Notes under the pieces: generated by a model
The model's input: only the letters and a program-made list of their open reading frames with translations
Database searches by the model: none
What the model was told of the DNA's origin: nothing
DNA from: Odoribacter splanchnicus DSM 20712
GTDB taxonomy: Bacteria > Bacteroidota > Bacteroidia > Bacteroidales > Marinifilaceae
Length of the DNA: 64,000 nucleotides
Assembly: GCF_000190535.1 (NCBI RefSeq)
Contig: NC_015160.1
Coordinates: 1,922,001-1,986,000 of the forward strand
Direction: 5' to 3'
Position numbers and translations under genes: made by a program
Shown here: positions 44,473-64,000 of the stretch, in pieces
Layout: every line of letters begins with the position of its first letter
How positions within the stretch are numbered: the stretch's first letter is position 1

Positions 44473-44478
44473 ATGAAG

Positions 44479-44551
44479 AGCGATAAACGGGACTCGAACC
44501 CGCGACCTTCGGCTTGGGAAGCCAACGCTCTACCAACTGAGCTATTATCGC
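44479..44551 (-). tRNA. tRNA-Gly (anticodon TCC)
   Basis: The 73-nt minus-strand sequence folds as a tRNA. The acceptor stem pairs GCGATAA with TTATCGC, the D arm contains AGCTCAGTTGGTAGAGC, the anticodon loop is CTTCCCAAG within a GGCTT/AAGCC stem, giving anticodon TCC, and the T arm has GGTTCGAACCC. CCA is not encoded. It is followed by a terminator and preceded by the divergent M20 hydrolase gene. Confidence 0.96.
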
Positions 44552-44654: not shown

Positions 44655-45797
44655 ATGGACAGGAATAAATTTTACCGGATCAGGGAAGAACTTCACCGGC
44701 ATCCCGAATTATCCGGACAGGAAAAACATACGATACAATATATCCGGCAAGTACTTCAGGAATTTCAGCCCTCCCGGATCCACCCCCTGGAAAAGGGCCA
44801 TGGACTGGTGGCAGAATACAGTTTCCCGGGCGAAGGTCCGACCCTATTATTCAGAGCCGATATCGATGCTGTGGCCATTGCAGAAAAATCACCTCTTCCC
44901 TATTGTTCGGAAAATCCGGGAGTAGCCCATAAATGCGGACACGACGGACACACGACCATGTTACTCATGCTGGCCGGACTCCTACATGAACATCCACTGG
45001 AACGAGGACGCATTTTATTACTCTTTCAACCTGCCGAAGAAAATGGACAGGGCGCACAACTAGTACTTCAGGACCCCTGGTTCCGGCAACAGAAAATCGA
45101 CCGGGCTTTCGCTCTGCATAATCTTCCCGGCTATCCGTTTTCTACGATTATCTGCCGGACAGGCAGTTTTACCTGCTCGGTCATCAGCTGTACCATCACC
45201 TTCACCGGAAAAACAGCACATGCCGCAGAACCTGAAAAAGCGGTTTCCCCGACCGCACCTTTACTGCATATCCTGCATCTAAGCGAAAGCTGGAATCGAG
45301 GGACCTTGAAAAATCCGGATTATTTCCGTACGACACTCATCGAACTTCATATCGGCGAAGAAGCTTATGGCGTTGCTGCCGGAAGCGGACTTATCCGGCT
45401 GACTCTTCGCGCTGCATCCGAAAAAATACTGCAAAAACACCGGCAACAGTTGGAACAATTCGTTCAGCAAACCATTGATTCCCATCCGCCCTTACGATGC
45501 TCCATCGAATGGACAGAACCTTTTGCGGCCAATGAAAATGATCCTGAATCCGTAACCTGGATTCAGGAAGCAGCCCAAAGCAACGGATTGGCTTACAAGG
45601 AAACCGATCATCCTTTTGCCTGGGGAGAAGATTTCGGATTATTCACTCAACATATTCCAGGTGCTATGTTCGGTCTGGGAGCAGGTATCTCTACTCCGGC
45701 CCTCCATACTCCGGATTATGATTTTCCTAACAACATTTTGCCAAATGGAGCCCGGATGTTTTACGAATTAGCCCTTATCACTCAACTGTCAGAATAA
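44655..45797 (+). CDS. M20-family amidohydrolase (peptidase or aminoacylase)
   Basis: The 380-residue protein is a zinc-dependent M20D-type enzyme. The metal-site motif is CGHDGHTTMLL, the catalytic Glu pair is in FQPAEENGQGA, and the later metal ligand is in ALHNLPG. RREELHRHPELSG-like text occurs at the N-terminus (IREELHRHPELSG). Substrates in this group include N-acyl amino acids and short peptides. The protein has no signal peptide and should be cytoplasmic. The stop codon lies within a strong hairpin. Confidence 0.93.
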   Translation: MDRNKFYRIREELHRHPELSGQEKHTIQYIRQVLQEFQPSRIHPLEKGHGLVAEYSFPGEGPTLLFRADIDAVAIAEKSPLPYCSENPGVAHKCGHDGHTTMLLMLAGLLHEHPLERGRILLLFQPAEENGQGAQLVLQDPWFRQQKIDRAFALHNLPGYPFSTIICRTGSFTCSVISCTITFTGKTAHAAEPEKAVSPTAPLLHILHLSESWNRGTLKNPDYFRTTLIELHIGEEAYGVAAGSGLIRLTLRAASEKILQKHRQQLEQFVQQTIDSHPPLRCSIEWTEPFAANENDPESVTWIQEAAQSNGLAYKETDHPFAWGEDFGLFTQHIPGAMFGLGAGISTPALHTPDYDFPNNILPNGARMFYELALITQLSE

Positions 45798-45857: not shown

Positions 45858-47732
45858 TTAAATCCTGGCTAATCCTCCTGAGCGCATTTTCCAATAATCA
45901 TACAAATCCTCCCAATAAGTCCATAATAAAAGTTTCGCCATCCCCTCTCCACAATCTACCGTATCCTTGTATTTTTTCAATTCTTTACTAAAAGCCATAA
46001 CACAAGTTTGCCGTACCAACCTCTCTTGTACTGATAAACGGTCTACCCGTTTTCCCGTAATCAGCCTCTTCAATTCTTTTACCAACTGACCGACCTGCTG
46101 TTCTCCATTCTCCTTTTCTGCTAACTGCAGCCAACGCTCGGTCCGAAAAAATTCTCCCCATACTCTTTGTAATCGCCCAAGCATATCATCACGTTCCATT
46201 CCCATTCTATTTTTTTGTAAAAAGGAAGGAGCATAAAATCCCGTAATATCTTCTTTCAATAATTGCATCAACTGTTCCGCCATTCCCTCTTGAAAAAAAG
46301 TCTCATCTAACCAACGGATATAATCCTTTTCACTCAATTTCAATACTTCCCGGTAATAATGCTTTACCTGTTCATTTTCCACCTCCTTCAACACCTGTTG
46401 CCAAGCCACACGCCTTTCCTCATACCTCTTCCATCCCCACTGTCCGGCAACCTCTTTCTCTGTCTTTATATCTTCTCTTTCCGCATAACAATACCACAAA
46501 GCCTCCAATCGTTTTGCAGCTGTGATATTTCTATTCTCCAGTTGTTCCGGATCCAATCCCAACAATATTCCCAAAGCTCTATCGATTTCCTGTTCACGAC
46601 ATCCCTGTAAAGCCTCCGTTTCCGAACACATCTTCCATATTCCGTCCTCTTCCCGGACCGGATTTTCCAATCGGTAGCGGATCACCGATTCCATAGAAAC
46701 ATCACCACTAATACGTAAACGTGCAGCTAAAATCCTTCCATCTCCGGGATGTTCCTGGAAATCCACTTTTATCCCTCCACCTCCGACATCAAAAACAACT
46801 GCGCAGGGGACATCAGCTTTCACCCTTCCTTTTTTTTGTTCCAATTCAAGCAATACTCTTCCCGTCCGGGCAGTCCACACTGCATTCAGCTTTTCTACTG
46901 CTGTATACAATAGCTCCACATATTCTTCCGGAATATCCTCAGCAACACATATATTCAGAGGCATTCCCGCATATGTATCCCAGCACACACAACGGATACA
47001 CTCTACACAACGGAAAGGATTCACTCCATAATCGACATAAACCTGCGTCCGGAATAACCCATCCGGGTCTTCCCCTCTGTTCCTCAAACCCCTATCCGGT
47101 AAGAGACACAAAGCCACAGATACTTCTACCGGTACCGAACCGCTTTCGGGCAACATTTCCACGACCTGCTGTTCAGGAGAACACTCCAAATAATGCCGGA
47201 TAGTAAAACATGCTCCGTTCCTACAGGTATCGACAGTTATAATCTCCGAACGGCCATACTGTATCCGTCCCCATTTCCCGTCCCCCACATACCACTTTTC
47301 CTTTATACCATCGGTCACATCAATCAAATAACCTGTTTCTTTTTTCTCCGCTACCGGCCAGGTTTCCACCGGTGTCTGTAAACCGGACATCTTCAGCAAT
47401 CCGTTACTCATCCATGTTGTATCTGAAACTCTCTCCGGACAGAAAACCGCAAAAACATCCAGGGTCATAGAATCCCTGCCTTGTTCCAATCTAAAAATTC
47501 CTTTACTCTCCAATAACTTCCCCCGAATTCCCAATCCTCTGTCTATCTGGGCCAATACCATCCATTCCCGCCCCAAATATGTCTGCTCAATTTCTACATA
47601 CATTCTGCCATTCCGTTCATATACCGGTAACACCACAGCATTCTCATCCTTATCTTTACCACAGGCATTTCCACTTTTTATCCCAACCATCCCTACCCAA
47701 CAAAACAACAATACCAATAACTTTGTCCTCAT
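45858..47732 (-). CDS. Inactive paralogue of the upstream zinc metalloprotease (pseudoprotease)
   Basis: The 624-residue secreted protein follows the same plan as its upstream neighbour: a signal peptide, an N-terminal domain (QTYLGREWMVLAQI against DSLLGRDMSLTTTI), and an alpha/beta segment (LYTAVEKLNAVW against VLRAVNNWNALF). The zinc motif of the neighbour, HEVGHVLGLTH, aligns with RALGILLGLDP at residues 385-395. All three His and the Glu are replaced while the G..LGL scaffold is kept. It is therefore not expected to bind catalytic zinc. It has unusually many Cys, including CVECIRCVCW at 242-251. It is the last gene of the operon, starting one base after the protease stop. A binding or chaperone role is inferred. 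Confidence 0.78.
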   Translation of the reverse strand: MRTKLLVLLFCWVGMVGIKSGNACGKDKDENAVVLPVYERNGRMYVEIEQTYLGREWMVLAQIDRGLGIRGKLLESKGIFRLEQGRDSMTLDVFAVFCPERVSDTTWMSNGLLKMSGLQTPVETWPVAEKKETGYLIDVTDGIKEKWYVGDGKWGRIQYGRSEIITVDTCRNGACFTIRHYLECSPEQQVVEMLPESGSVPVEVSVALCLLPDRGLRNRGEDPDGLFRTQVYVDYGVNPFRCVECIRCVCWDTYAGMPLNICVAEDIPEEYVELLYTAVEKLNAVWTARTGRVLLELEQKKGRVKADVPCAVVFDVGGGGIKVDFQEHPGDGRILAARLRISGDVSMESVIRYRLENPVREEDGIWKMCSETEALQGCREQEIDRALGILLGLDPEQLENRNITAAKRLEALWYCYAEREDIKTEKEVAGQWGWKRYEERRVAWQQVLKEVENEQVKHYYREVLKLSEKDYIRWLDETFFQEGMAEQLMQLLKEDITGFYAPSFLQKNRMGMERDDMLGRLQRVWGEFFRTERWLQLAEKENGEQQVGQLVKELKRLITGKRVDRLSVQERLVRQTCVMAFSKELKKYKDTVDCGEGMAKLLLWTYWEDLYDYWKMRSGGLARI

Positions 47733-47733
47733 G

Positions 47734-49932
47734 TTATTTCCATATTGAATTCACATTTTTTCTCCACGCTTTCCAAAAAACATCCTTTTCCTTGTCTGTT
47801 TTCCGATACATCACTTTCAATTGTTCCTCCATCAAAGCCACCACTTCCGGATACCTATTCCTTTCTGTTTGTATATATTCCATCAAACAATCCGTATAAC
47901 ACCATATCAAGAATCTTCCCCAACACTCCTCACCAGATACATTCCGGAATATTTTTCCCAAATCTCTGATATATTCAGTGACCGAATATTCCCGATCGTA
48001 ACCTACAAAACAATCCGCTTTTTCTACCAACCGTCTGACAGTCTCCCTTCCCCAGTCTTCCCACCACTCCCGAGGCAGGTCCTTTCCCGATTCCAACACA
48101 TAGGTTTGTAAAAAACGCAGGGCATCCTGCTGTTCTTCCCTCCCCACAGCAACAACTATAACCGAATCATTCCCCCAACATTTCCTTATCCCTCCGAGAT
48201 AGGTAAAAGCCTGATTTATGTACTCCGAATATTGTTTTCGGATAGCAAGATTCCAACTTTCAACACTCAGACGCCCGTTATTTCTCAGAGTATCTCGCAA
48301 CAAACGCTTCAAGTGACACATGCCCAATTCTGCCGTTTCCAACGAATAACGCCCTAAATCTTCGGCTTGTGCTTCAGGTAAGTTTCCACCGCTATCCTGA
48401 AAACGATATTTACGCTCCAATTGTTTTTTTTCTATCCAAACAGACAATTTTTCCTGAATTTCTTCAGACGCCAATCCGGGAAAATAACGGTATCCCCACT
48501 CAATAGCCAATGAATCATAAGCGCCAATCCGGGGTATCCGGTCGGACATATCGACTCCATCTTCGGGTTGTACAGCATAGTTCATACGCATATAATCCAT
48601 TATAGAACTACCATAACCATGACGGTGTAAAAAAACGGCATCTCTTAACTGCTCTGTTTCACACAAAGAACTCCCATAAAAATTATGGGTCAATCCCAGT
48701 ACATGCCCGACTTCGTGTGACACCACCATCTCCAGCAATCTACCAGCCAGTTCGTCCGGGAACTCCTCCTCGCTTTCTCCTGTCTGTGCAATATACCACT
48801 GGCATAACATATCAAAAACCGAATGAAAAACCGCAATATGACAACTCAGGATCTCACCGGTACGGAAATCTACAAAAGGACGTCCATAAGCATTCTCCAT
48901 CGGAGAAGCCTTATAGACGATCCATGACAAAGCAGAATTATCTAAAGTAAATCCGGCCGAATCCGGAGCCATAAGTCCTGCTATGGCATTTTTAAAACCG
49001 CTACGTTCAAAAAGAGCATTCCAATTGTTCACGGCACGTAAAACATAAGGACGCCACTTTTCAGGAAAACTACGGTCGATATATATCCTAATCTTTTGCC
49101 GGGGTTCAACCAGTTCTCCCCGCCTATACCGGGCCGTATCACGATCCGCCACTTCCAGCCGCCAACGTTTCACTACGCGATCCGAGATGACCTGACAACT
49201 TCCCGGTTCCATATGTGCATAAGGTACAGTAAAATATCCAACCCCTGAAGAGGCATAACGTACCTGCATCAGATGCCGGGGCAACAACCTTAAACAACAA
49301 CCTAATTTCCATCGAGTCACTTCTCCATTTGCTGAAGTTGCAGGCGTCCTCTCTACAGCTTCATAAATCCGTTCAGACCTGACAATCACACTTTCCGGCG
49401 TTCCAAGAATTGCCGTTACCCTTCCTTCACGCTCACTCCCTATCCCGATCAAAAAAGAAAAGGGTTGTAATCCCCACAACTTTCCATCACGAAGCCATTC
49501 GGTCACATCAATGATCTTCCCGGTCTTTTCACACCCCAAGATTTCAAATTCCTGTAAGGTAAGGGGCATTTCCCGTTCAGACAATAAACTTCCGAGTGAA
49601 TATGACCCGGAAGTATCCACATAACTTCTTATCTCCTTCAATATTATCTGTTCCTTCTCTTCCTCCCACCGTAAAATCCTCGGACCGAACCGATCGCCCT
49701 GATATCCGAATTTAGCATCAGCAGATTTTTTTTTTCGTCCGGCACCCTCCAATATTGTAGTCGTCAGGCTCATATCACGTCCTAGCAGACTATCCGGGAT
49801 CACCCATAAAATACGTCCATTCTGTTGATAAGTTGTAAACAAACCAGGTATAACTTCCGACTGTGCATAAAGCTTTATCATACACAGCAAGAAAAAAAGA
49901 ATCCAACAGATTTTTTTCAACCAGGATAACAT
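47734..49932 (-). CDS. Secreted zinc-dependent metalloprotease, metzincin type (DUF5117/DUF4953-like)
   Basis: The 732-residue protein has a signal peptide (MLSWLKKICW..., ending near KLYAQ). It then has an N-terminal domain resembling those annotated DUF5118/DUF5117 and a catalytic domain with the complete metzincin motif HEVGHVLGLTH (His406, Glu407, His410, His416 from this start) and a Met-turn-like SIMDYMRMNY. It should cleave proteins or peptides outside the inner membrane. The longer frame starts at 49992 but would overlap the previous gene; the ATG at 49932 gives the signal peptide. A strong hairpin abuts this start. The downstream gene is a paralogue lacking the zinc site. Confidence 0.88.
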   Translation of the reverse strand: MLSWLKKICWILFFLLCMIKLYAQSEVIPGLFTTYQQNGRILWVIPDSLLGRDMSLTTTILEGAGRKKKSADAKFGYQGDRFGPRILRWEEEKEQIILKEIRSYVDTSGSYSLGSLLSEREMPLTLQEFEILGCEKTGKIIDVTEWLRDGKLWGLQPFSFLIGIGSEREGRVTAILGTPESVIVRSERIYEAVERTPATSANGEVTRWKLGCCLRLLPRHLMQVRYASSGVGYFTVPYAHMEPGSCQVISDRVVKRWRLEVADRDTARYRRGELVEPRQKIRIYIDRSFPEKWRPYVLRAVNNWNALFERSGFKNAIAGLMAPDSAGFTLDNSALSWIVYKASPMENAYGRPFVDFRTGEILSCHIAVFHSVFDMLCQWYIAQTGESEEEFPDELAGRLLEMVVSHEVGHVLGLTHNFYGSSLCETEQLRDAVFLHRHGYGSSIMDYMRMNYAVQPEDGVDMSDRIPRIGAYDSLAIEWGYRYFPGLASEEIQEKLSVWIEKKQLERKYRFQDSGGNLPEAQAEDLGRYSLETAELGMCHLKRLLRDTLRNNGRLSVESWNLAIRKQYSEYINQAFTYLGGIRKCWGNDSVIVVAVGREEQQDALRFLQTYVLESGKDLPREWWEDWGRETVRRLVEKADCFVGYDREYSVTEYIRDLGKIFRNVSGEECWGRFLIWCYTDCLMEYIQTERNRYPEVVALMEEQLKVMYRKTDKEKDVFWKAWRKNVNSIWK

Positions 49933-49961
49933 TTTCCGGGACCTGAACAGGTCCCGGAAAA
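49932..49961 (-). promoter_or_regulatory. Perfect 14-bp hairpin abutting the metalloprotease start codon
   Basis: On the minus strand TTTTCCGGGACCTG (49948-49961) pairs with its exact complement (49932-49945) across a 2-nt loop. The last paired base is the A of the ATG at 49932. There is no T-run after it. It lies 11 bp downstream of the stop of the PKD-like gene. It could hold the ribosome-binding region closed until the upstream ribosome arrives, or act as an RNA processing site. Confidence 0.75.
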
Positions 49962-49972
49962 ACAACTGCTTC

Positions 49973-51634
49973 TTATTTAAAAGCATAGACAAAATCCACT
50001 ACATTTTTAAATCCTTTAAACTCATAAACCATCAAGTCTTTCGTTCCCTCTTCCTTATCTATCTCTCCGGCTGCAGTCAGCTTCATTTCAAGCATACTGC
50101 AATTTCCATCCGGATATTCGGCCACTCCCCCCAGGTAACTTACAAAATCATAAGGAATCGCTTCTACCTCATCTCCTCCCGAAATATCCCAACGGTCCTC
50201 CCGTTGGCTGCGGAATTTCAACCGGGTAATCCGTACAGAAGGATCCGGATGGGCATAAATTTCATATGAACGAGGAGTTGAACGAGTCAAGTCTGCCCGA
50301 TAAATCTTATTACCGACAGCATAGTAAAACATACGGTCAAAATAAGCTGAAGTGGCCACCGGTAATTTTCCTTCGACAAGCCCTGTTTCCGGGGTCAATT
50401 CCCAATAACCGCTACAGATTGTCCCTTTCTTCCCTTGTATCATCTCCGGAGAAATTTCGTAAATATACAAGCTACTTCCCTGACTGGCTATCGCCATAAT
50501 CTTCGGAACATCGCGGGAAGTCGTCGCTCCGATATAAATTACATCTTTATCTCCAATATTGTTCGGATCGAATTTATTCGGATAACCGGCCTGCTCGCCT
50601 ATGGTCTCCAGTTTCTGTTCATTCAGACTTCCGTCAATATCGTAAAGATCTTCCATGCCGCTAGCGATGTAGCGGTTCGTATTATAATTATTACCGCCAA
50701 TATCCGCATTATAGTAAGAAAGGAAGCGTTTGTTCTTGGAATCATAAATAATATTTATTCCTTCCGGTGACACATCATAAGCCAGGGAAGCCCTCTCTGC
50801 ATAATAATCCCCATCTGCAGCTTTCACCGGATAATAAACAGAAAATCCATCCGGCTTGGCAAACCAGAATACCCCGTCGTCAATAATACATTCCCCCCGT
50901 TTATCTCCTTCCGCATACATCGGTGCATAATGGGTGTCATTATTCAGCTTTTTGTATAACAACATTCGGTTATATGCATAACGTTCTTCCAAAGTAGCAC
51001 CATCCAGCATATAGTTTTTCCCTCCTTCAGTGAAAATACCCAACAATGTCTCCTCAGATCCTTGCTGCATGGCATTTTTCAGATGCAAATTATTAATCGA
51101 CAAGAACAAAGGTTTACCCTGCAACCTGCCTCCCGTTTCCTGTGCATAGATATCTTGTACGGCAACCCGGCTGCTACCGTCCCCATCGATACATCCCAAT
51201 ACGGCATTCTCACCGATATTCTGCAGCACAAACCAACAACGGTTAAATGCAGCCACCAAATTAACCACCGTCTCACCGAAGGTCACGATATTCTGTACCG
51301 TATCCGTTACAGCCAGCCGTAATGTAATCTGTCCGCTATTTTTCGGGTAAACCCATATCCGGCATACCGAATCCGTACCACATTCCGTCCACGTCACCCC
51401 ACTTAGATTCTTTTTCCACAAATAAGTCAAATTGGCATTATCTTTCCGGTCCAACTGGGTAACAGCCGCTTTCACTTCAACCAAAACCGAATCTTTCTTC
51501 GGTATCGTAACACTGACGCTCCGCGGCATTTCTAACACCATATCGTTGATGTCATTATAATCATAATTTCCCAAATCATCGTAACAGGCTATTCCCAATA
51601 CAGCCAATAATCCCCATACCAATATCTTTTTCAT
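49973..51634 (-). CDS. PKD-like family surface lipoprotein
   Basis: The 553-residue lipoprotein has lipobox GIAC (Cys17). After the Cys it continues YDDLGNYDYNDIND, a motif I associate with PKD-like lipoproteins encoded in SusCD loci next to DUF4843 genes. Residues about 40-120 look like an immunoglobulin/PKD fold (DNANLTYLWKKNLSG), and the remainder is beta-rich with repeated Tyr/Asn segments. It is probably a cell-surface substrate-binding protein. The ATG at 51634 begins the signal peptide; an ATG 33 bp upstream is less likely. It is the fourth gene after FecR. Confidence 0.78.
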   Translation of the reverse strand: MKKILVWGLLAVLGIACYDDLGNYDYNDINDMVLEMPRSVSVTIPKKDSVLVEVKAAVTQLDRKDNANLTYLWKKNLSGVTWTECGTDSVCRIWVYPKNSGQITLRLAVTDTVQNIVTFGETVVNLVAAFNRCWFVLQNIGENAVLGCIDGDGSSRVAVQDIYAQETGGRLQGKPLFLSINNLHLKNAMQQGSEETLLGIFTEGGKNYMLDGATLEERYAYNRMLLYKKLNNDTHYAPMYAEGDKRGECIIDDGVFWFAKPDGFSVYYPVKAADGDYYAERASLAYDVSPEGINIIYDSKNKRFLSYYNADIGGNNYNTNRYIASGMEDLYDIDGSLNEQKLETIGEQAGYPNKFDPNNIGDKDVIYIGATTSRDVPKIMAIASQGSSLYIYEISPEMIQGKKGTICSGYWELTPETGLVEGKLPVATSAYFDRMFYYAVGNKIYRADLTRSTPRSYEIYAHPDPSVRITRLKFRSQREDRWDISGGDEVEAIPYDFVSYLGGVAEYPDGNCSMLEMKLTAAGEIDKEEGTKDLMVYEFKGFKNVVDFVYAFK

Positions 51635-51663
51635 ACTATCATTTTTTCTGTTCACATTCATCA

Positions 51664-52329
51664 TCAATCCTTAGGAAACACAATCTCATTCTGAGGATTT
51701 TCGTCATCCATCAAAGGCGGATTACCAGCCTTCTTATAAGCCTCATACTTAGCACTGACCTCATCCCTGACTTCTTTCGTCTGCTCTGTCTCAGCATAAA
51801 TTTTCCCCAAGTTGTCCATCATAAACATATATTTATTATTACTGTATATCCCCCACAACCTCTCATCCCAATCTGAAGGACGTATCGTATAAGCGATAGT
51901 AACTTCACAATCCGAATTCTCCACACGTCCCTCCCCAAACTCATGCTCAGCATTCTCTATATCAAAAGTCAGTTTTGTATTCAACTGGGCACCGACCCTA
52001 GGGGGACGGGGTACAACCAACTGGGCCGTAAAAGTTTCAGCCCCAACAGGAAATTCATAAGAAGGTATAAACACAACCCCTTCCATCTGATCGACCGTTT
52101 TCAGGCAAAAATTCAAAGGCTTTTCCAAAGCATATCCCAAACAACGCACTTTTACCCCTAAAGCACGTTCTGTAACTTCATTTATATAATCCCGGTCATC
52201 GAAAACACACTCGGCTTTTGTATTGAAAAATTCCAGACGGGGGGCTTCGTTATATCCCTTTATATCATTTTTCTCACAAGAAATGGCGGTAATCAATACA
52301 ACCATCATTCCATATATCAATCTTTTCAT
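51664..52329 (-). CDS. DUF4843-like surface lipoprotein
   Basis: The 221-residue lipoprotein has lipobox AISC (Cys18). The sequence YNEAPRLEFFNTKAECVFDDRDYINEV and the later SDWDERLWGIYSNNKYMFM are similar to DUF4843 proteins that accompany SusC/SusD pairs. Its fold is predicted to be beta sandwich. The frame opens one codon earlier with a GTG at 52332; I use the ATG at 52329. It lies 6 bp after SusD and 29 bp before the PKD-like gene, so all three are co-transcribed. Its function is unknown; a surface binding role is inferred from context. Confidence 0.75.
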   Translation of the reverse strand: MKRLIYGMMVVLITAISCEKNDIKGYNEAPRLEFFNTKAECVFDDRDYINEVTERALGVKVRCLGYALEKPLNFCLKTVDQMEGVVFIPSYEFPVGAETFTAQLVVPRPPRVGAQLNTKLTFDIENAEHEFGEGRVENSDCEVTIAYTIRPSDWDERLWGIYSNNKYMFMMDNLGKIYAETEQTKEVRDEVSAKYEAYKKAGNPPLMDDENPQNEIVFPKD

Positions 52330-52335
52330 CACTTA

Positions 52336-53829
52336 CTATTTTCCGGTTATACCAAACATATCTTCATTTTCAGGCAAAGGAAACTGATACTTTGTCCGTA
52401 CATCGACCAAACTGCAATTTGCAAAAGTGACGTAGTTGTGCCGTTTATAAAAATAGAACAGCTGTCCCTCTCCGTAATACTCTTTCAGGTATTCACGCAT
52501 CACTTCGTTGATCCGGCGCGTATGCCCACTGTCAAATCCTTCACGGGTATCCGGTTCGTCATATCCTTTTCCCCCATCTGTCGCATCACTGGAGGCGATT
52601 CCCCGTTTAAAACGAACCATATCCAAAATTTCAGCGCTGCTCTGCGGATCCGGATCACATTCAGCCATAATATAATACATTTCCGGAATCCTGATCAAGG
52701 GCATGACATCTGCACCGGAATAAGCTCCTGTATAATTCGGTAAATGATCTGAGGCATATCCGGTCTGATCGTATTTCGACAAGATTTTCTTTGTATCATC
52801 AGTAATCAACATCTCATGAAAAGCGGCATTTCCTGAACGGAAATCAGTAGAACCACCGGCAGATAAATCATAAAACTGCCCGAACAGTTCTTTGCCGACT
52901 CCCAAACCGGAAACATTCTGATTGATGAAATCAGGGTCCACCACTTTCTCCATCTCATAAATATGTAAACTAAAAATATGTTCATCGAATAAGATCCTGT
53001 TTTCTGTCGTCAAAGCTTCAGTCAACGGGAACAATTTACTTTCCACCACCTCACTGGCAACAGCATAAGCCTTAGCTTTACTTTCTTCATCCCCCTTGTA
53101 ACAATATACCCTTGCCAACATAGCCTTTACAGCCCAACGATTCATACGAAACTGACGCAGCTCCAGAAACGGGTCTGCATTGACGTCATGAACAAAGATA
53201 TCATGATCAGCCTCCCACAATAGAGAATCTGCCTGGTGTAAATCCGCCAGACAAGCGTCTACCACCTCCGTAGCAGGTAATACAGGAGTCGGTTCATTAC
53301 TGAATACTGTCCGATAAGGAATAGCTTTCCCCTGAGGTTCCATAGCAAATACCGGCCCGAACATCCGTAACAGATCAAAATGCAGAAAGGCACGCAAACC
53401 CAAAGCTTCCCCTTTCATAATCTCATAATAACCCGGCGTTGTAATTACCTCACGGTTCACCTCCAGATAATGCAGGAAATTATTAATGTTCGCAATAATA
53501 TTATAAGCACCTGAAAAAACATTATCTTTAATACTTTTATAAGTTCCGTCATAATTATAAATCGATGTCCAGTTCGTTATGTCAGGAGCGTACTCATACC
53601 GTCCGGCAAGCATCTCCATATAATTATAGGTTAGCTCACGTCCGTAAAGGGAAGACTCTCCCATTTTAAGATAAAAGCCCGTTAAAGCATCCTGGAAACC
53701 AAACTCATCTGCAAACAAATCCTCTTCCGGCACGGAAGTTTTAGGCTGTACATCCAGCCAGTCCGAACATCCGCTACTCCCCAATACGATCACCAACAGG
53801 AAACCATATACAAATTTATACATATTCAT
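52336..53829 (-). CDS. SusD/RagB-type surface nutrient-binding lipoprotein
   Basis: The 497-residue lipoprotein has lipobox SSGC (Cys21) followed by SDWLDVQPKTSVPEEDLF, the typical N-terminal strand of SusD family members. It has the helical TPR-like scaffold (AYNIIANINNFLHYLE; EALGLRAFLHFDLLRMFGPVFA; MNRWAVKAMLARVYCYKGD). SusD forms a lid over the SusC channel and captures the nutrient. The gene starts one base after the SusC stop. The substrate is not necessarily a glycan, since no glycan-degrading enzyme adjoins it. Confidence 0.94.
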   Translation of the reverse strand: MNMYKFVYGFLLVIVLGSSGCSDWLDVQPKTSVPEEDLFADEFGFQDALTGFYLKMGESSLYGRELTYNYMEMLAGRYEYAPDITNWTSIYNYDGTYKSIKDNVFSGAYNIIANINNFLHYLEVNREVITTPGYYEIMKGEALGLRAFLHFDLLRMFGPVFAMEPQGKAIPYRTVFSNEPTPVLPATEVVDACLADLHQADSLLWEADHDIFVHDVNADPFLELRQFRMNRWAVKAMLARVYCYKGDEESKAKAYAVASEVVESKLFPLTEALTTENRILFDEHIFSLHIYEMEKVVDPDFINQNVSGLGVGKELFGQFYDLSAGGSTDFRSGNAAFHEMLITDDTKKILSKYDQTGYASDHLPNYTGAYSGADVMPLIRIPEMYYIMAECDPDPQSSAEILDMVRFKRGIASSDATDGGKGYDEPDTREGFDSGHTRRINEVMREYLKEYYGEGQLFYFYKRHNYVTFANCSLVDVRTKYQFPLPENEDMFGITGK

Positions 53830-53830
53830 A

Positions 53831-56800: not shown

Positions 56801-57244
56801 AACTCCTGGCAGCACACCTCCTTTAGAATCGACTACGACACCTTCCAGCTTAATTAATTTCTGGGGAGCAGCCATATCGGCCCCGGCTTGTTTCTTATAA
56901 ATAACAATAATCTGATTTTCAATCTCATAACTAAAATCAGAACCACGCAGACATTGTTCCATCACTTCATTTATATTTCCCGATACAACGTCTACGGAAA
57001 CGTTTCCAATAGTATTTATAACTTGCTCATTATAAGCCAATCGGTAACCCAACTGTCTCTTTATTTCTTTAAAAGCTTCTTTTAATGAAACATTTTCCAG
57101 ACGTAATGTCACACTCTGTCCGGCAGCTTCAACCACTAAAGGTTCGGTTAATATAAACAAAGTAAATAAGGATAACCGGATCCATATTCCTGCCCAACGG
57201 CAGACCTTTCCCCACCCTATTCGATTCTCTCTATTATTTTTCAT
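53831..57244 (-). CDS. SusC/RagA-type TonB-dependent outer-membrane transporter with STN signalling domain
   Basis: The 1137-residue protein has a signal peptide, an STN domain (about residues 42-117, SVTLRLENVSLKEAFKEIKRQ to the VIYKK end), a carboxypeptidase-like domain (about 128-210, LEGVVVDSKGGVLPGVTVVVKG), a TonB box near TELDEVVVTGM, a plug domain, and the 22-strand barrel to the C-terminal Phe-Lys. STN domains relay substrate binding to a FecR-type anti-sigma factor, and FecR is the gene just upstream (29-bp gap). It imports the cargo that SusD delivers, driven by TonB. Confidence 0.96.
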   Translation of the reverse strand: MKNNRENRIGWGKVCRWAGIWIRLSLFTLFILTEPLVVEAAGQSVTLRLENVSLKEAFKEIKRQLGYRLAYNEQVINTIGNVSVDVVSGNINEVMEQCLRGSDFSYEIENQIIVIYKKQAGADMAAPQKLIKLEGVVVDSKGGVLPGVTVVVKGTTIGVATDIDGKFSLEITETPGISLEFSFVGMNSKEIPVKIENGKVQPLRVVLEEAETELDEVVVTGMFSRKKEGFTGSAVTVKGDELKKISTTSIAKALSTIEPSFRIMENISAGSDPNRLPDMRMRGSSTLPAGGAGDNSLVSLQGEYDTYPNQPLLILDGFEIDVQTMVDLDPDRVQSITMLKDASATAIYGSKASNGVIVIETYTPKPGEINVSYGGNLRLQMPDLSAYNLMDAEEKIQVEALAGLYSPNDLDSQRDYQNRLREVKRGVDTYWLSQPLRTAVQHRHALTLEGGSEALRYKLYLGLNQTPGVMKESRRSTQTAALDLSYRYRKLLMKNSLTVDNSTGDDSPYGSFSEYTRLNPYLRPYGENGEINKIMQTWDMIYLGNSQPYQVANPMYNTTFHSKDRTTSFSIRNLFKLEYTPTDAWRLQADISIQKSTGKDEVFRPAQHTAFAEVVDPTLKGDFKRNQSEDFNYMFAFTASYNNVVNDVHYLTGNLRYSVEQTHSEVYGATVTGFPNGNMDHILFGKKYNENMTGSEGTTRALGAVATLGYSYDYRYSADFNIRIDGSSQFGKDNRFAPFWSAGLRWNMKKESWLRNVKWVDDVVLRASYGVTGTQGFSPYQSRSVYTYTNLMKPYFSSNATGTELVALGNSNLKWQQTGTWNVGLELSLLKGRFTTRAEYYIKNTKNSLAQITLAPSVGFASYPENMGNLETKGVELNFSFIPYRNLDKDAYWMITVNGSHNEEKLKKISDALRHMNELNTSNEKDKPLPMYEEGESQTRIWVVRSLGIDPMTGDELLLTRNGKVTSEYNAIDKIPYGDTEPKWQGNINTAFNYKGFGANLSFNYKFGGQVYNQTLVDKIENADLRYNVDKRVLQERWQKPGDVAKYKRLTNSVNGSETRPTSRFVMDENTLTFGSLSLTYRMDQQNTRFLKKSFISSLKWGFTMEDIFYLSSVKQERGLDYPFARQFAISLNVVFK

Positions 57245-57273
57245 ATTCTCATTAAATTACCTATTCCTCTCTT

Positions 57274-58419
57274 TCAACGGATAATGACCGTCCGGCCTTT
57301 CAATTCAACATCCAGTGTACGGGTCTTCTCCAGTATATTCATTACCTGTTTTAACGAACTACTCCGTTCAATTTCAAAAGAATAATATTCATTCTGTTTA
57401 TCACTATCTACAAAAAATACTTCAATATCATACCAACGAGCCAATTCTCTCATGATATATTCCAGAGAACGGTTATCAAACAAAAAATACCCGTCGATCC
57501 AGCTTGTTGCCGAAGCTCCGGCTTTTCCAACCACCCAGCGTTCTTCCATCAACTGTGCTTGTTCTCCCGGTTTCAGTAAAACCTCATGCTTTCCCCGGCT
57601 TAACCGGATACTTCCTGACAACAACACAGCCGAATAAGGTTCATCTTCGTAATGACGGATATCGAAACGGGTTCCTAAAACCTTCACGACATTTCCTGCC
57701 GTTTCCACCCGGAAAGGCCTCAAGGAATCACGTGCCACGTCAAAAAATACCTCTCCGTCACAAGCTACCCGACGCTCTCCTGTCGGAAAAACTACAGGAA
57801 AACGTACTACAGATTCCGCATTCATCCATACTTTCGTCCCATCCGGTAAGATCATCTTATAATCCGTTCCTCTGGGTGTCCGGATCTCATTATATTGAGA
57901 AGAGTCTGCCCGCTTCACGTTTGCAGTCGGTTCATAACGGGCATACCCATCCTCAGCTAACAAGAAGCCTCCATCCAAATTGTAAGCAGAATCTCTGTTC
58001 AATGCAATCTCTTTACCGGAGGCCAGCCGAATGACCGGCAGAGAGGAGTCTGTTAGTCTCTCTGCCAGGTCCTGATCTGTTTGCTTCACTTCATTTCGCC
58101 AATAAAACCAAACGCCTTCCCCCATACACAACAGCAGAACAATCCCTGCTGCCCAACACCACCATCTCCGCCGTCTGTATCTCACAATCCGACGCCTAAT
58201 ATTCAATTTCAAACGTTCACGGGCCTTTTCCTTATCGGACAACTCCAATCCAGCCATCTTACACCTGACATACTCCCGTCTACTGATTTTTTTATAAAAA
58301 TCTTGATGCTCCGGTGTTTTCAGCCAGTTTTCCAATGCCCGACTTTCCTGTTCGTTTAAATCTTCCAACAGAGAATGAATAATCAAACGCCTAATCACCT
58401 CTTCACTGTCCGTTCTCAT
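57274..58419 (-). CDS. FecR-family anti-sigma factor
   Basis: The 381-residue protein has a cytoplasmic N-terminal region of about 80 residues, one membrane segment (about 86-107, WWCWAAGIVLLLCMGEGVWFYW), and a periplasmic part with the FecR signature (IRTPRGTDYKMILPDGTKVWMNAES; FPTGERRVACDGEVFFDVA) and a C-terminal STN-like region (SLEYIMRELARWYDIEVFFVD). It should sequester an ECF sigma factor and release it when the STN domain of SusC signals. An ECF sigma gene usually lies right before FecR, but here the M64 peptidase gene does, 16 bp away. The sigma factor must be elsewhere. Confidence 0.93.
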   Translation of the reverse strand: MRTDSEEVIRRLIIHSLLEDLNEQESRALENWLKTPEHQDFYKKISRREYVRCKMAGLELSDKEKARERLKLNIRRRIVRYRRRRWWCWAAGIVLLLCMGEGVWFYWRNEVKQTDQDLAERLTDSSLPVIRLASGKEIALNRDSAYNLDGGFLLAEDGYARYEPTANVKRADSSQYNEIRTPRGTDYKMILPDGTKVWMNAESVVRFPVVFPTGERRVACDGEVFFDVARDSLRPFRVETAGNVVKVLGTRFDIRHYEDEPYSAVLLSGSIRLSRGKHEVLLKPGEQAQLMEERWVVGKAGASATSWIDGYFLFDNRSLEYIMRELARWYDIEVFFVDSDKQNEYYSFEIERSSSLKQVMNILEKTRTLDVELKGRTVIIR

Positions 58420-58435
58420 AGCTAATCAAAAAGAG

Positions 58436-60274
58436 TTATTCAGCATCTTCTTTATCCCGGGAAAGGAAATCGTCCAGCGATGCACTCGGAAAATCCATAC
58501 CTTCCCCCCGGAAATTTTTCATTCGTAAATAAATTAAATAACGGCTCAAAATATTGAATCCTTCATCCATCCCTTTCATCAGACTGTTTTCAGAAGAACG
58601 CCATACCCCACCACTACACGAGAAACCACCGACATAGACATCGGAAATTTTACCTCTGTCTTTCAATTCTTGCCAAGGTTTCGGAAATTCGGTGGACGAC
58701 ATCGATACGTTCAGATACATTCCCGCATCCTGCCATGACTTCAGGTAACTAGCCGTACTCGCATCAAGTGGACCACCGAAAGAGTACTCATCGGCTAGTT
58801 TTCCAAAAGCATGTCCTCCGGCTTCATGGCGCAGAATCTGGACAAAATTATTCGGGAAAGGCTCCTCAGATACCGGGCAAATAGCGACTCCTTCTCCAGA
58901 TTTGGTCAGGTTGGCTACCCCTCCGTAACGTTTACCGTTAGCCATCACAATCACAACATCCTGAGTCGGAATATAGTCCAAACCTGCACCCTCAATACTA
59001 GTCTTGACAAACTCCTGAATAGCTGTATAATCACAGTTCATACCGGTTCCGAACTCATCATAAGAACATTTGAATCGGGTATTTACTTCCTTAGGTCCTC
59101 CATAAGTCGCATTATAGTCCGTACATCCAGATTCGGCAGACTCAGCATGCAGCAAGATAAATCCGAAGCGTTCCGAATAAGTTTTGAAAGGCTCCAGTGA
59201 CTCCATACCCTCCATCGCTTCCTGGCAATATAAATCATAAACCCCCGATTCAATTTCTTCTTTCGTGAAACCATCTCCAATCAAAATAAAATTGAAAGTA
59301 ATACGCGGGAAATCAGGTACTGATGCAAAAGGATCATCATAAGTCGGTTTCTTCCAGATCACAGTATGTCCGTCGTAAGTTTTGTACATCTGACTCAAAG
59401 ATAACGGGAAGCTCAATCCCAGTACTTTATTTTTCAGATGCAATTTCGTGCGGTTGAAAAACTCACCTGTATTGGGCTCTAACTTGAAAACCATCTTGAA
59501 TTGACCGTCTTCGTTTTTTGTTTCCTTAAGTGTTACCCAGCTCACCTCCTCTTCGTCAAACTCTACATCAAAAGGTATATTACATTCAAACGAATGTGTC
59601 AATTCTGTCATATCATATTTGGCAAACAGCTTATCGTTGTCCAATTTCCATTTGGGTTCCGGATATTGGGTCACTTTCAATGTATCGTTCAGATTACTCT
59701 GAGTGTCCTTCAGATAAACCATAGCCTCCCGGATAACATTGGAATTGTTCACAGTCAAAGTTAAAGCCAGATTCCGGTCAGTCACCGCCTTGGTGACAGG
59801 AGCTGTTATCCAATCCACGCCTTCGCTGAAAGTTACATTCAAGGTGCCGTTTGACCGGTAAGGAACTTTCAAGGAAGTATGGTTATACAAAGCGATGAAC
59901 TCTTTTTCGTTGATTTCCAATACTCCTTTTTCCAGCTGATATACCGGCAAATTCCAGTTTTCTGTTCCTGCCTGAACCACCAGGCGTACTTTTCGTTCTA
60001 CTTCAGTCGTATTTTCAATTACCGCAACCTTTACCTCATATTCTCCGGCTTGTCCACTTACCGGCTCCACCGATAACCATTCGGGAATATTTACAATTTT
60101 CCAAGCCTCACTAGAAGTTACCTGAATAACCTGCTCTGTTGCCAGAGAACCGAAACGCAGGGAACTCTCCGAGACTTCCAGCCGGGGCGTATCTACAGGA
60201 TCGTCGTCGTCTGAGCAACCTCCTAAAAAGAAGGCTGCTCCCAAAAGAAACAATAAATTAATTAAATATTTCAT
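58436..60274 (-). CDS. BACON-domain M64 (IgA-peptidase-like) metallopeptidase lipoprotein
   Basis: The 612-residue lipoprotein has lipobox LGGC (Cys20) followed by five acidic residues in a row, which suits surface export. Residues 31-115 and about 118-205 form BACON-like beta domains, and a third occupies about 206-297. The M64 domain (about 299-600) has IGDGFTKEE and the metal motif RHEAGGHAFGKLADEY (His483, Glu484, His488; Asp495-Glu-Tyr). M64 includes IgA proteases. The spacing between the two His is HEAGGH, one residue longer than HExxH, which I recall from Bacteroidota members. It should act on surface-bound protein. The FecR gene follows 16 bp on. Confidence 0.87.
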   Translation of the reverse strand: MKYLINLLFLLGAAFFLGGCSDDDDPVDTPRLEVSESSLRFGSLATEQVIQVTSSEAWKIVNIPEWLSVEPVSGQAGEYEVKVAVIENTTEVERKVRLVVQAGTENWNLPVYQLEKGVLEINEKEFIALYNHTSLKVPYRSNGTLNVTFSEGVDWITAPVTKAVTDRNLALTLTVNNSNVIREAMVYLKDTQSNLNDTLKVTQYPEPKWKLDNDKLFAKYDMTELTHSFECNIPFDVEFDEEEVSWVTLKETKNEDGQFKMVFKLEPNTGEFFNRTKLHLKNKVLGLSFPLSLSQMYKTYDGHTVIWKKPTYDDPFASVPDFPRITFNFILIGDGFTKEEIESGVYDLYCQEAMEGMESLEPFKTYSERFGFILLHAESAESGCTDYNATYGGPKEVNTRFKCSYDEFGTGMNCDYTAIQEFVKTSIEGAGLDYIPTQDVVIVMANGKRYGGVANLTKSGEGVAICPVSEEPFPNNFVQILRHEAGGHAFGKLADEYSFGGPLDASTASYLKSWQDAGMYLNVSMSSTEFPKPWQELKDRGKISDVYVGGFSCSGGVWRSSENSLMKGMDEGFNILSRYLIYLRMKNFRGEGMDFPSASLDDFLSRDKEDAE

Positions 60275-60292
60275 ATCACATATTTTTACTTG

Positions 60293-62452
60293 TTAAAATG
60301 CAAGGAACGGACGAACTTCTCCATAACTTCCGGCCAGATCTCCATAGACATGCATCGTTTCCCACCAACCATTTCGCAAATAAAATTTAAATACCATCGG
60401 ATGTACCTGATAATCGGTTTCTGTCGAGGTATAAATCCGGTTGAAATAATCTGCCTCCCATGCATTGGTCTGATCAATGATAAAACTGACATCATATCCA
60501 TAGAAATAGAACTCATTGCCTCCATTATCAACGATCAACTGGTTAATAGCTTTACGTTTTTCTTTCATGGCTTCAGAAGGCTCCTGCCCAGCTTCACCAT
60601 CAGGAGATAAAACCTCCCCGTCAATCCAGCCTACCATTGCCTGTACTTCTTTAATAGCCGGCAGATACCATCCGGGATTTCCATTCTCGTCATTCAAATC
60701 ACTGACATAAGCAGCTACAGGATAATGAGTTTTCCAATCGGGGATCTGTTTGTAAGCTTTCATATTCTCCTGTCCGTCTGTCTCACTACGGGCAATTACT
60801 CCCACATTATTAGGATCCTCCGGATGGATTTCATCATAAGGTAATCCTGTACGATACAACAGATTCAGATCCCTGTGAGCTTTCAAAGCTACCACTTTAC
60901 CATGGGCACCTCCGTCGCTGATTTCATATACCAGACCTAAGGGTTCACCATTGACTACATACAAATCACCTACTTTATAATATTTACTTTGTATAATAGT
61001 CAATTTCACTTTCACATCCGTCTGAGGAATCTCAACGATTAATTCGACAGAACGGGAACCGGCTTCTGCAGGTGTAGCACTGATCTTTATCTGATTATTA
61101 ATATCATCCTGTATCACAGTACACCATTTATCTTCGCTTTCAGGCAGGGTCATTCCCCATAGTTTTGCATTCGTAGAGACTTTTACAATCACTTCATCTC
61201 CAGCCTCATTCAAGGTAACCCGGTCTGTCGAAAGTACCAGTGACGGTTTGGTTCCGAGCTGAGTTACAACCACCTCACATGAAGCCGTATTAGAAGCCGC
61301 ACCGGTACTCAGGGTGATGGTAGCCGTACGATCTGTTTCCAGCTCGGAAACAGTCGCATTCACCTTCAGCACATCTCCCTCTGTACTGATAGAACACCAC
61401 TCCTGCGCCTCTTCATTAACTTCTGCTTTCCAGTTTTCCCAGGAAGAGTTTACCTTCACCGTTATCTCACCGCCTTCTGTTTTAAAATTAACTTTTTCCT
61501 GGTCGGTAGAAATTTTCGCCAAAACACTTCCTTCCTGGATAACTGTCAATCTTCCGTTCACAAAAGGAGTAGCACCATAAGGTGTGCTAAGTAAAATTCC
61601 AATAGAACGTTCATTCAAAGTCGGATTAGCCTCCACTGATAACAGGTATTTATCCGTTTCCCCTTCTTTCAGTTCCATTTTTACCCATCCCGAAGCCTCT
61701 ACATTATATTTCTCGACTGTCGACAAAACTTCAATATCAACACTACCTCCGGCAGCATCTATACGGACAGTATCCGGATTCGCCACGATCATCGGCTCAT
61801 TTCCCATTTGTTCGATAGCCAAAGTATCGGTGAAACGGTTACCTCCGACACCACCGGATACTTCCAACGTTGCACGACGGGCTGTCAACAATTCATTAAA
61901 TTCGGAAGTCAGTAATAATTTTGAATTTTCTGCATCGAGTTGTACGGTAATCCAATCGACCAAGGTATCGCCACGCCACTTGTACTCGATTTCCGGACTG
62001 AAAGTCATATACATCACTTCCCTGGTTTCTTCTTTCGGAGAAAAAACGACTTTTTCCGGAGAAAACATAATAGACATTTTATCTCCGGCCTTTTGGACCA
62101 CATCCAGGTACAAAGTTTTCATATTTTCCCCTTCCCCTGAAAAAATTTTCACCCGGGAAGAGCGCACTAATGTATCCAGATTCTGTAAAGGACTGATCAC
62201 CAATTCTTTTTCAGAAACTTTCAATTTACACCATACACTGTCTTCCAATGGAGACATTTCCGCACCCCAGGGATAATTGGATTTCATTGCCAGTTTTTGT
62301 TCTCCACCCATTGCCGGAAACTCAAAAGTTGTTTGATTTCCGCCAATTGTCAACTCAACAGGCATATCGAGCCCATCATCATCTTTACAGGCAACGATAC
62401 CCCATACGATGAACACGAATAAAACACTAAAAAATAAATATTTTGTCTTCAT
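60293..62452 (-). CDS. Five-BACON lipoprotein with a C-terminal Lcl/DUF1566-like domain
   Basis: The 719-residue lipoprotein has lipobox IVAC (Cys22) followed by KDDD. Five consecutive BACON-like beta domains span about residues 32-121, 127-217, 219-308, 310-399 and 402-489; the last four show the pattern W/K at the strand start and ending in VIQ/VTQ/IEQ. The C-terminal 230 residues contain GWYLPAIKEVQAMVGW and end in EVRPFLAF, resembling the Lcl C-terminal/DUF1566 domain that binds glycans or proteins. No catalytic motif is seen. It is likely a long surface binding protein for the same substrate as the M64 peptidase. Confidence 0.85.
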   Translation of the reverse strand: MKTKYLFFSVLFVFIVWGIVACKDDDGLDMPVELTIGGNQTTFEFPAMGGEQKLAMKSNYPWGAEMSPLEDSVWCKLKVSEKELVISPLQNLDTLVRSSRVKIFSGEGENMKTLYLDVVQKAGDKMSIMFSPEKVVFSPKEETREVMYMTFSPEIEYKWRGDTLVDWITVQLDAENSKLLLTSEFNELLTARRATLEVSGGVGGNRFTDTLAIEQMGNEPMIVANPDTVRIDAAGGSVDIEVLSTVEKYNVEASGWVKMELKEGETDKYLLSVEANPTLNERSIGILLSTPYGATPFVNGRLTVIQEGSVLAKISTDQEKVNFKTEGGEITVKVNSSWENWKAEVNEEAQEWCSISTEGDVLKVNATVSELETDRTATITLSTGAASNTASCEVVVTQLGTKPSLVLSTDRVTLNEAGDEVIVKVSTNAKLWGMTLPESEDKWCTVIQDDINNQIKISATPAEAGSRSVELIVEIPQTDVKVKLTIIQSKYYKVGDLYVVNGEPLGLVYEISDGGAHGKVVALKAHRDLNLLYRTGLPYDEIHPEDPNNVGVIARSETDGQENMKAYKQIPDWKTHYPVAAYVSDLNDENGNPGWYLPAIKEVQAMVGWIDGEVLSPDGEAGQEPSEAMKEKRKAINQLIVDNGGNEFYFYGYDVSFIIDQTNAWEADYFNRIYTSTETDYQVHPMVFKFYLRNGWWETMHVYGDLAGSYGEVRPFLAF

Positions 62453-62479
62453 AAATTTATATTTAATGGTTAACCATTT

Positions 62480-64000
62480 TTAAATAGCAACGGATAACAT
62501 GACAGTAACTCCTGTATGTTCCGGAAAATAGCGGCATACTCCCCCGGCACATTGTATTCCCTCCCGATTCCGGCCATAATCGACAGATGCCCGCAAGCTA
62601 CGCCAGCTGTAACTCCCTCCGACACGATAATAATGAAGGCTGTCACCATAACTTTCATAATTACACATATCGCTTACATATACCATCCATGCCGGAGCCA
62701 ATCCCAGCTCTAACAATCCCATGGCCCAACGCTGATTATCTTTTGAGTCGCTCCACACATGCTGCAACTCCATCCGTAAAGAAGTTTTCGGGGTAACTTT
62801 GTAAAGCAGATCAGCAACCAATACCTCTGAGTCCATCCTCATATTCCCAAAACCATATTTACTGAATTCCAGTTTCCTCTGGTGGAAAAACAACAATGTA
62901 CTTTTGAAACTCTTCGACCATTTTCTCTCCAATTCCAAGCCGATCTCTCCATAAAGTAATTTTCCTTTCTGCCTGAAAAGATACGTACTCTCATCGTCCT
63001 TTTTCACAGTAAGACTCCGATACATAGATCCGTTCACTGCAAAAGACAGGGGATTTCCTGTTTTCCCCCCCATAGGCAGCTCCCCAAACAAACTGAATTG
63101 TCCTCCTGTCTCTCCTGCCATTTTTATCTCATGCGGAAATAAAGTCAACAATGCATATTTATGTTGCATGGTCAATGCCGGCACATAATTCAAACTGACA
63201 CTTTCATCGTTTAAGCAATCGTCGACCCGCAAATCTCCGTTTTCAAAAGCACGAAATGTTGCGGAAAAACCTATTCCCGGAGCATCGATCCCTGCATACA
63301 ACAGTACATTACGACCTTTTCCATAGCGGATGTTATATGCGTCGTCCCAATACACAGAGCGACTTTTTGCAACATATTCCCCTCCCAGGGAAAATATCCC
63401 TTTGGACAAATCCAGCCTGCCGGCATAATTCCGTACTACCCGGTCGGCCTTCACATTATGTTCATCACTTCTGTCATCACGCAATACCCAGGAACCACCC
63501 ACCGAAAGCAGCATTCCGTTTTCCGGGAACAACAAACTTCCCAAATCTATTTCTCCATCTGTACCATAGATCCGTACCGGAGCATATTCCTGAAATTTCT
63601 GCGGTACTCCGGCCACGACTTTCAAAGTCACCCCATCCCACGGACGCCACCTGATATTCCCCCCCATCAAGGCATTATTAATCCCCAAGGCCCTTTCCTC
63701 ATAAGTACGAAAAATCAAACCACTTCCAAACTGTTCATATACCGTCCCTGCACGTAATTCCAAAGACTCACCGGCCCATTCAGCAAATCCTCTCATCAAC
63801 TTACATCCCTCCCATTCCGGAGAAAAACCGATCATTGGTGGTTCATAGATATCATATTCCAAACCAAAACGGAAAGCTTTAAATGAATATCCTAAAGTCA
63901 GATAAGTATTGGTAGCCACTTTATCTTCCACCTTCTTCACCCCCAACTTATCATCCTTCATGTAGAATCCCCAGTTCGTCTCCAGACTTCCGCTAAAATG
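62480..64000 (-). CDS. DUF6029-like outer-membrane beta-barrel protein (N-terminus beyond window)
   Basis: The frame reads to the right window edge without a stop; residues before the first internal Met at 63961 read HFSGSLETNWGFYMKD, so the real start is outside. The visible 506 residues alternate polar and hydrophobic strands, with many aromatic residues at strand ends, as in outer-membrane barrels. YEQFGSGLIFRTYEERALGINNAL matches DUF6029 proteins as I recall them. It is the first visible gene of the ten-gene SusCD-protease operon (gap to the next gene 27 bp). Its role is unknown. Confidence 0.8.
   Translation of the reverse strand, partial: HFSGSLETNWGFYMKDDKLGVKKVEDKVATNTYLTLGYSFKAFRFGLEYDIYEPPMIGFSPEWEGCKLMRGFAEWAGESLELRAGTVYEQFGSGLIFRTYEERALGINNALMGGNIRWRPWDGVTLKVVAGVPQKFQEYAPVRIYGTDGEIDLGSLLFPENGMLLSVGGSWVLRDDRSDEHNVKADRVVRNYAGRLDLSKGIFSLGGEYVAKSRSVYWDDAYNIRYGKGRNVLLYAGIDAPGIGFSATFRAFENGDLRVDDCLNDESVSLNYVPALTMQHKYALLTLFPHEIKMAGETGGQFSLFGELPMGGKTGNPLSFAVNGSMYRSLTVKKDDESTYLFRQKGKLLYGEIGLELERKWSKSFKSTLLFFHQRKLEFSKYGFGNMRMDSEVLVADLLYKVTPKTSLRMELQHVWSDSKDNQRWAMGLLELGLAPAWMVYVSDMCNYESYGDSLHYYRVGGSYSWRSLRASVDYGRNREGIQCAGGVCRYFPEHTGVTVMLSVAI

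Follow-up and report, generated by a model that had tools for sequence, protein, structure and literature searches.

The RagAB transporter of Porphyromonas gingivalis, a SusCD-type system, imports peptides, and a 2025 paper asks whether it assembles with peptidases and surface-binding proteins into a utilisome (PMC11817032); the part of that paper available to us mentions no co-encoded proteases or thioredoxins. In Bacteroides thetaiotaomicron, the mucin locus BT4240-50 is described (PMC11992087) as holding a BACON-bearing lipoprotein metallopeptidase (BT4244) beside SusCD together with glycosidases. The BT3013/BT3015 locus of the same species likewise has SusCD with an M60-like peptidase, BT3013 being free of carbohydrate-active enzymes (CAZymes) and, according to the available text of PMC11992087, induced on mucosal glycans. 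Polysaccharide utilisation loci (PULs) with peptidases are also reported from Petrimonas (PMC7768429, available in part), and M64 and other peptidases from S24-7 genomes, with no placement in SusCD loci mentioned in the accessible portion of that report (PMC4936053). Here we analyzed a protease-bearing SusCD operon of Odoribacter splanchnicus DSM 20712 in a window of 64,000 nucleotides (the whole stretch of DNA examined), which corresponds to positions 1,922,001-1,986,000 of the single-contig genome (NC_015160.1; 4,392,288 bases) and is numbered from its first letter.

The operon shares with RagAB the SusC/RagA-type barrel and the SusD/RagB-type lid. In contrast to BT4240-50 and BT3013/BT3015, which have M60-like peptidases, it encodes an M64 protein and a DUF4953 metzincin; unlike BT4240-50, it has no glycosidases, and it adds a dead metzincin partner and the genes TlpA, DUF6029 and Omp28, neither of which is mentioned in the available descriptions of the Bacteroides loci. 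The reading that we prefer, and consider somewhat better than an even bet, is that the operon serves the use of proteinaceous food by surface proteolysis, peptide import, further cleavage and a thiol-disulfide module. Surface BACON lipoproteins, BACON-M64 included, would hold protein on the outside of the cell and nick it there; SusC and SusD, assisted by the DUF4843 and PKD_2 lipoproteins, would take up the fragments in a TonB-dependent manner. Further cleavage, whether periplasmic or at the transporter, would fall to the metzincin, with its dead paralogue helping or steering it, while the TlpA/DUF6029/Omp28 module would provide thiol-disulfide exchange, perhaps opening disulfide-linked substrates. 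FecR and a divergently encoded extracytoplasmic function (ECF) sigma factor would sense the ligand via the STN domain of SusC. A preliminary description of the window had proposed a transport machine for protein or peptides; its basis, SusCD with proteases and without CAZymes, was borne out, and protein or peptide uptake is the best reading of it.

The ten minus-strand genes of that description were all recovered at 45858..64000, and nine of them matched the families named in it when scanned with Pfam (DUF4843 below the cut-off); the tenth left no more than a faint trace of DUF5117 (15.7 bits). The spacing and extent of the operon had to be revised. The gaps, given previously as 1 to 41 bp, measure -20 to +29 bp. 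The DUF6029 gene (62480..64000 in the window) starts outside it and is complete at 62480-64090 in extended coordinates (536 amino acids), and an eleventh gene, Omp28 (64111-65379, or L008:10111-11379, minus strand), heads what we judge by spacing to be an eleven-gene operon. The absence of glycoside hydrolases and lyases held past position 64000: no CAZyme was matched by Pfam in the eleven operon genes or in the 10 kb beyond the window edge. No glycosidase or sulfatase family was matched in the operon either, where a CBM_35_2 trace reached 16.5 bits against a cut-off of 23, and the SusCD operon lacks the CAZyme by which a PUL is recognized.

SusC (53831..57244, minus strand, as are all genes of the operon) scored 623 bits with the NCBIfam model TIGR04056 (cut-off 368) and contains Plug, CarbopepD_reg_2 and STN domains according to Pfam; RagA was its second-best match among solved structures (E 3.9e-48). 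SusD (52336..53829) follows directly after 1 bp and scored 60.7 bits with SusD-like_3 (cut-off 27), so the locus has both the plugged SusC barrel and the adjoining SusD of SusCD/RagAB systems. Downstream are the DUF4843-like lipoprotein (51664..52332; 27.3 bits, cut-off 34.5) and the PKD_2 lipoprotein (49973..51667), for both of which sequence comparison with solved structures found no relation at E 1. The FecR anti-sigma factor (57274..58419) is encoded upstream of SusC, and its partner is probably the ECF sigma factor (L008:12199-12846) that lies, with a TlpA-like thioredoxin, divergently beyond Omp28.

The BACON-M64 protein (58436..60274; 612 amino acids) matched the BACON and Peptidase_M64 profiles and has the fold of the catalytic domain; Foldseek on the whole model returned M64 matches mixed with immunoglobulin (Ig)-like repeats. 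Its zinc site is HEAGGH (HExxxH; residues 483-488; HEAGGHAFGKLAD in the window) instead of the canonical HEXXHXXXGXXD, and because the canonical motif is absent, activity cannot be assumed. The accessible part of a 2025 survey gives the M64 motif as the HExxH type, one residue shorter. The M64 igalysins BF3526, BACOVA_00663 and ThomasA have HExxH and Gly, whereas this protein has HExxxH and Lys; homologues of BF3526 are stated not to occur in PULs, whereas this protein is encoded in a SusCD operon. No relative of the M64 protein turned up in an initial scan of named genomes. HExxxH was seen in 62 of 63 scorable homologues, a fraction that is not the frequency of HExxxH in M64 since the homologues were retrieved with an HExxxH query, and a single group of alike proteins (P0016-P0063) makes up 48 of the 62. 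The motif was also present in 14 of 16 M64-domain proteins of further genomes, and H483, E484, G487, H488 and L493-A494-D495-E496-Y497 were invariant in a 25-row alignment. A sequencing slip or a decayed site is unlikely, as the extra residue is in frame and recurs in homologues and in the second copy of the genome. That second BACON-M64 protein (HEVGGH; L237 / L102:13385-16529) lies in a FecR-SusCD operon directly after a protein with two thioredoxin stretches. The group P0016-P0063 consists of proteins of about 1000 residues that combine leucine-rich repeats, BACON and HExGGH M64 domains.

The other BACON protein, a lipoprotein of 719 amino acids (60293..62452), was described as having five BACON domains; one region was matched by Pfam, the other four being recognized by eye, and the protein is likely a surface spacer or binder. 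A lipobox followed by acidic residues is a surface export signal of lipoproteins. Because the M64 protein (CSDDDD), the BACON-repeat protein (CKDDD) and Omp28 (CSDSDD) have such starts, a location at the cell surface fits all three.

The last two genes of the operon encode a metzincin and its inactive paralogue, the latter correctly recognized in the preliminary description. The metzincin (47734..49992; DUF4953, 225 bits) has the HExxHxxGxxH motif (HEVGHVLGLTH) and the Met-turn (SIMDY). Its neighbour (45858..47732) has lost all three zinc histidines, and is thus a pseudopeptidase, homologous to an active enzyme without the zinc ligands; it scored 144 bits with a profile of other dead paralogues built without it, and it retains a matrix metalloproteinase-like core in a low-confidence model. 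A homologue search with this protein returned, among the 7,995 candidates scored, only copies of at least 98%. Altogether, 12 live/dead pairs from at least four genera were collected, all of them behind SusCD; Pedobacter and Mangrovibacterium are among the genera that have the pair. The adjacency is conserved, the distances between live copies are congruent with those between dead copies, and the dead copies form one branch (100/100), a tree by which recent decay is rejected. The dead paralogue would then be an ancient, catalytically dead partner of the metzincin. Both proteins have signal peptides and no clear lipobox (by eye), which favours a periplasmic location. TldD/TldE and the mitochondrial processing peptidase, both of folds other than metzincin, offer likenesses to the pair. 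The former is a heterodimeric metallopeptidase (PMC5810440, available in part) and the latter a heterodimer with a zinc-less alpha subunit (PMC11266112, likewise); unlike either, the metzincin pair, joined on genetic grounds only, is secreted and tied to SusCD.

DUF6029, a probable outer-membrane barrel, was found in 112 of 198 Bacteroidales genomes, mostly in single copy. A TlpA-like gene is directly beside it in 29 of the 30 best genomes (1.5 kb flanks). Of 20 genomes examined with longer flanks, 19 have TlpA directly upstream and 19 have an Omp28-like TGxxCxxC protein no more than 1 kb away (in 18 it is downstream and on the same strand, in one on the other strand); all six of these neighbours that were scanned by Pfam are Omp28. 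Because both linkages recur across the order, the trio is old and general in Bacteroidales, and in this genome it is rearranged and joined to the SusCD-protease operon. Here the three genes are all adjacent (L008 8480-12109), with a gene order and TlpA direction that differ from the usual TlpA-DUF6029-Omp28. The local Omp28 (PF11551, 136 bits) has a CGYC motif and a lipobox-like start, and had no match among solved structures at E 0.1. A role of DUF6029 in polysaccharide secretion was suggested by profile similarity (PMC9603273, in the part available), but its thioredoxin linkage points elsewhere. In another genome of the order, a metzincin-motif protein (HELGHYLGLYH; L296:2034-3344, minus strand) follows the trio, which makes this the second case of the trio being linked to a secreted protease.

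This distribution lends weight to the strongest alternative, that a housekeeping trio and a SusCD-protease operon are unrelated modules with a shared promoter only and no joint mechanism. No SusC-labelled gene was present within four genes on either side of DUF6029 in the 20 genomes (0/20), and a genome of the same genus (G106) has the SusCD-metzincin operon and no DUF6029 match. Set against this are the continuity of the eleven genes, where no gap exceeds 29 bp, and the thioredoxins of the sister loci described below; we regard two modules as a real possibility that falls short of an even chance.

The genome contains 32 PKD_2 matches and at least 56 SusC genes (the number scored). We compared the locus under study, covered by the window and L008, with the surroundings of the other PKD_2 genes (31 stretches, each 19.5 kb long), in which genes were called by script and labelled with profiles grown from the window proteins. 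A SusC-labelled gene is present within 9 kb upstream in 30 of the 32 loci (full-length, at least 800 amino acids, in 27), SusD in 29, DUF4843 in 28 and FecR in 24. Two loci (2,754,991 and 4,123,225) have none of these four labels; at 3,508,887 the PKD gene itself was dropped by the overlap rule and its neighbours were still read. By hand count, the commonest extra gene is a TlpA-like thioredoxin (19/32), six loci have a peptidase (a metzincin in four, including the locus under study, a subtilase with PorV, and an S9 peptidase), and 22 have a thioredoxin and/or a peptidase. The metzincin pair occurs in only three loci, and Omp28, DUF6029 and M64 in one, the locus under study. The FecR-SusCD-DUF4843-PKD_2-TlpA operons of the same family thus have the same core and usually TlpA as the extra gene, whereas the operon analyzed here adds Omp28, DUF6029, M64 and the metzincin pair. 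The idea of a unique, dedicated ten-gene machine was abandoned because the FecR-SusC-SusD-DUF4843-PKD core recurs among the 32 loci and Omp28 and DUF6029 belong to the separate trio. Among 40 unlabelled open reading frames (ORFs) of at least 150 amino acids in sister operons, no glycoside hydrolase appeared in the best 25 of 82 Pfam families; 15 of them scanned singly gave none either, though one matched, below the cut-off, the propeller domain of a lambda-carrageenase. A protein query found relatives of the PKD protein in 23 of 56 genomes of the family, and PKD_2 was found in 8 of 395 genomes of a phylum sample, its own included, and the expansion therefore looks local to the family.

Several sister operons have distinctive gene content. 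One PKD_2 SusCD operon (L085:11293-14305; genome positions 2,102,792-2,105,804) includes a subtilase with a Por secretion tail and, directly after it, a PorV gene; the subtilase probably leaves the cell by type IX secretion and has a PorV of its own. In another, an S9 prolyl oligopeptidase (L071:4199-6841) directly follows SusCD-DUF4843-PKD-TlpA. Three encode two-headed thioredoxins of 720-810 amino acids (L095:5936-8098, L073:6337-8649, L074:11166-13598), with an N-terminal thioredoxin domain and a C-terminal redoxin/AhpC-type domain. In same-genus relatives (L104:3036-3881, L105:3078), a BACON protein of about 280 amino acids lies between FecR and SusC, where the operon under study has none.

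As a control, we used 32 SusC genes of the same genome away from PF16407 matches and scanned 48 of their 70 unlabelled ORFs, the 22 left out being chiefly short or upstream. In the best 25 of 31 Pfam families, Peptidase_Mx1 was found in three, M16 in one and GH2 in one; a metzincin is present in one control operon (L227) and the second M64 in another (L237). Since PKD_2 and control loci both carry them, the SusCD repertoire of this genome leans to peptidases and thioredoxins generally, thioredoxins more so around PKD_2.

Several of these results weigh against uptake of protein. Peptidases at control loci reduce the PKD_2 link to an enrichment, TlpA is present at 10 of 32 control loci (9 of 30 without L225 and L242, both of which hold a PKD-like gene), and 10 of the 32 PKD_2 loci have neither thioredoxin nor peptidase. 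None of the 10 solved SusD-type matches is named as peptide-binding, and one is NanU, a sialic acid binder (judged by names only). Since BT3013 is induced by glycans, the presence of a peptidase is no proof that the ligand is a peptide. What the sequences show is which genes are present, their motifs, the conserved linkage and the age of the live/dead pairing; the substrate, the place of each enzyme, cleavage by the HExxxH protein, assembly into a complex and the redox role are inferred.

A glycoprotein or glycopeptide importer, in which the proteases open glycosylated protein and SusCD recognizes its glycan moiety, after the example of the mucin locus BT4240-50, seems to us unlikely, though worth keeping in view. 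The operon gave no match to a glycosidase or sulfatase family, and the BACON domain of BT4244 bound none of the sugars tested, as far as the available account goes. Pedobacter, Chitinophaga and Mangrovibacterium are environmental genera; the occurrence of the metzincin pair in the first and last counts against this importer, and relatives in Pedobacter and Chitinophaga speak against a host-specific substrate such as immunoglobulin A (IgA). Quite doubtful is a bolder form of the protein hypothesis, a reduce-cut-import machine, in which a thiol relay across the outer membrane would pass electrons from periplasmic TlpA through or beside the DUF6029 barrel to Omp28, a surface lipoprotein of thioredoxin fold, and open disulfide-bonded proteins; the HExxxH M64 protein, together with a heterodimer of live and dead metzincin docked on SusCD, would then cut and import them, and the trio would be a relay throughout Bacteroidales. 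It is improbable that the ligand is linked to a metal, a thiol or a cofactor (a siderophore-like peptide, haem or a thiol compound) and that the proteases strip carrier proteins: such systems commonly have FecR/ECF/STN signalling and thioredoxins, and FecR and STN are present here, but FecR also occurs in 23 of the 32 control SusC operons (hand count) and no cofactor-handling family was matched in the operon. That the operon serves defence, destroying IgA or antimicrobial peptides instead of obtaining food from protein, is the least credible alternative, given an M64 protein without the canonical zinc motif.

The preliminary description knew of no characterized system with this combination. 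In part it is not new, as a protease-bearing CAZyme-free SusCD locus (PMC11992087) and a peptide-importing SusCD system (PMC11817032) are published, to judge from the accessible text of both. What looks new, relative to the literature searched (which covered few subscription journals), is the M64 branch with HExxxH, the live/dead metzincin pair linked to SusCD, the trio, for which no description was found, and how far the PKD_2 SusCD loci have expanded. Under the protein-uptake reading, the operon and its sisters name candidate genes for the peptide utilisome question raised for RagAB. With the operon come a branch of M64 whose zinc motif exceeds the one reported for the family by a residue, an ancient pairing of catalytic and dead metzincins that has stayed with SusCD, and a thioredoxin-barrel-thioredoxin trio that is conserved. 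All of this bears on how nitrogen and carbon may be drawn from protein by gut Bacteroidales that have dozens of SusCD pairs, many of them lacking nearby CAZymes.

In the surroundings of the operon, genes for an ATP-binding cassette (ABC) ATPase, DUF5686, SIS/CBS and RecQ proteins lie farther past the ECF sigma factor. Sigma-70 promoter-like sites are at chance level (34 observed, 36.9 expected) and terminator-like sites above it (22 vs 13.8, standard deviation 3.8). Just downstream of the operon are a tRNA-Gly(CCC) gene (44478-44551) and an M20-family peptidase gene (44655-45797), the latter convergent with the operon.

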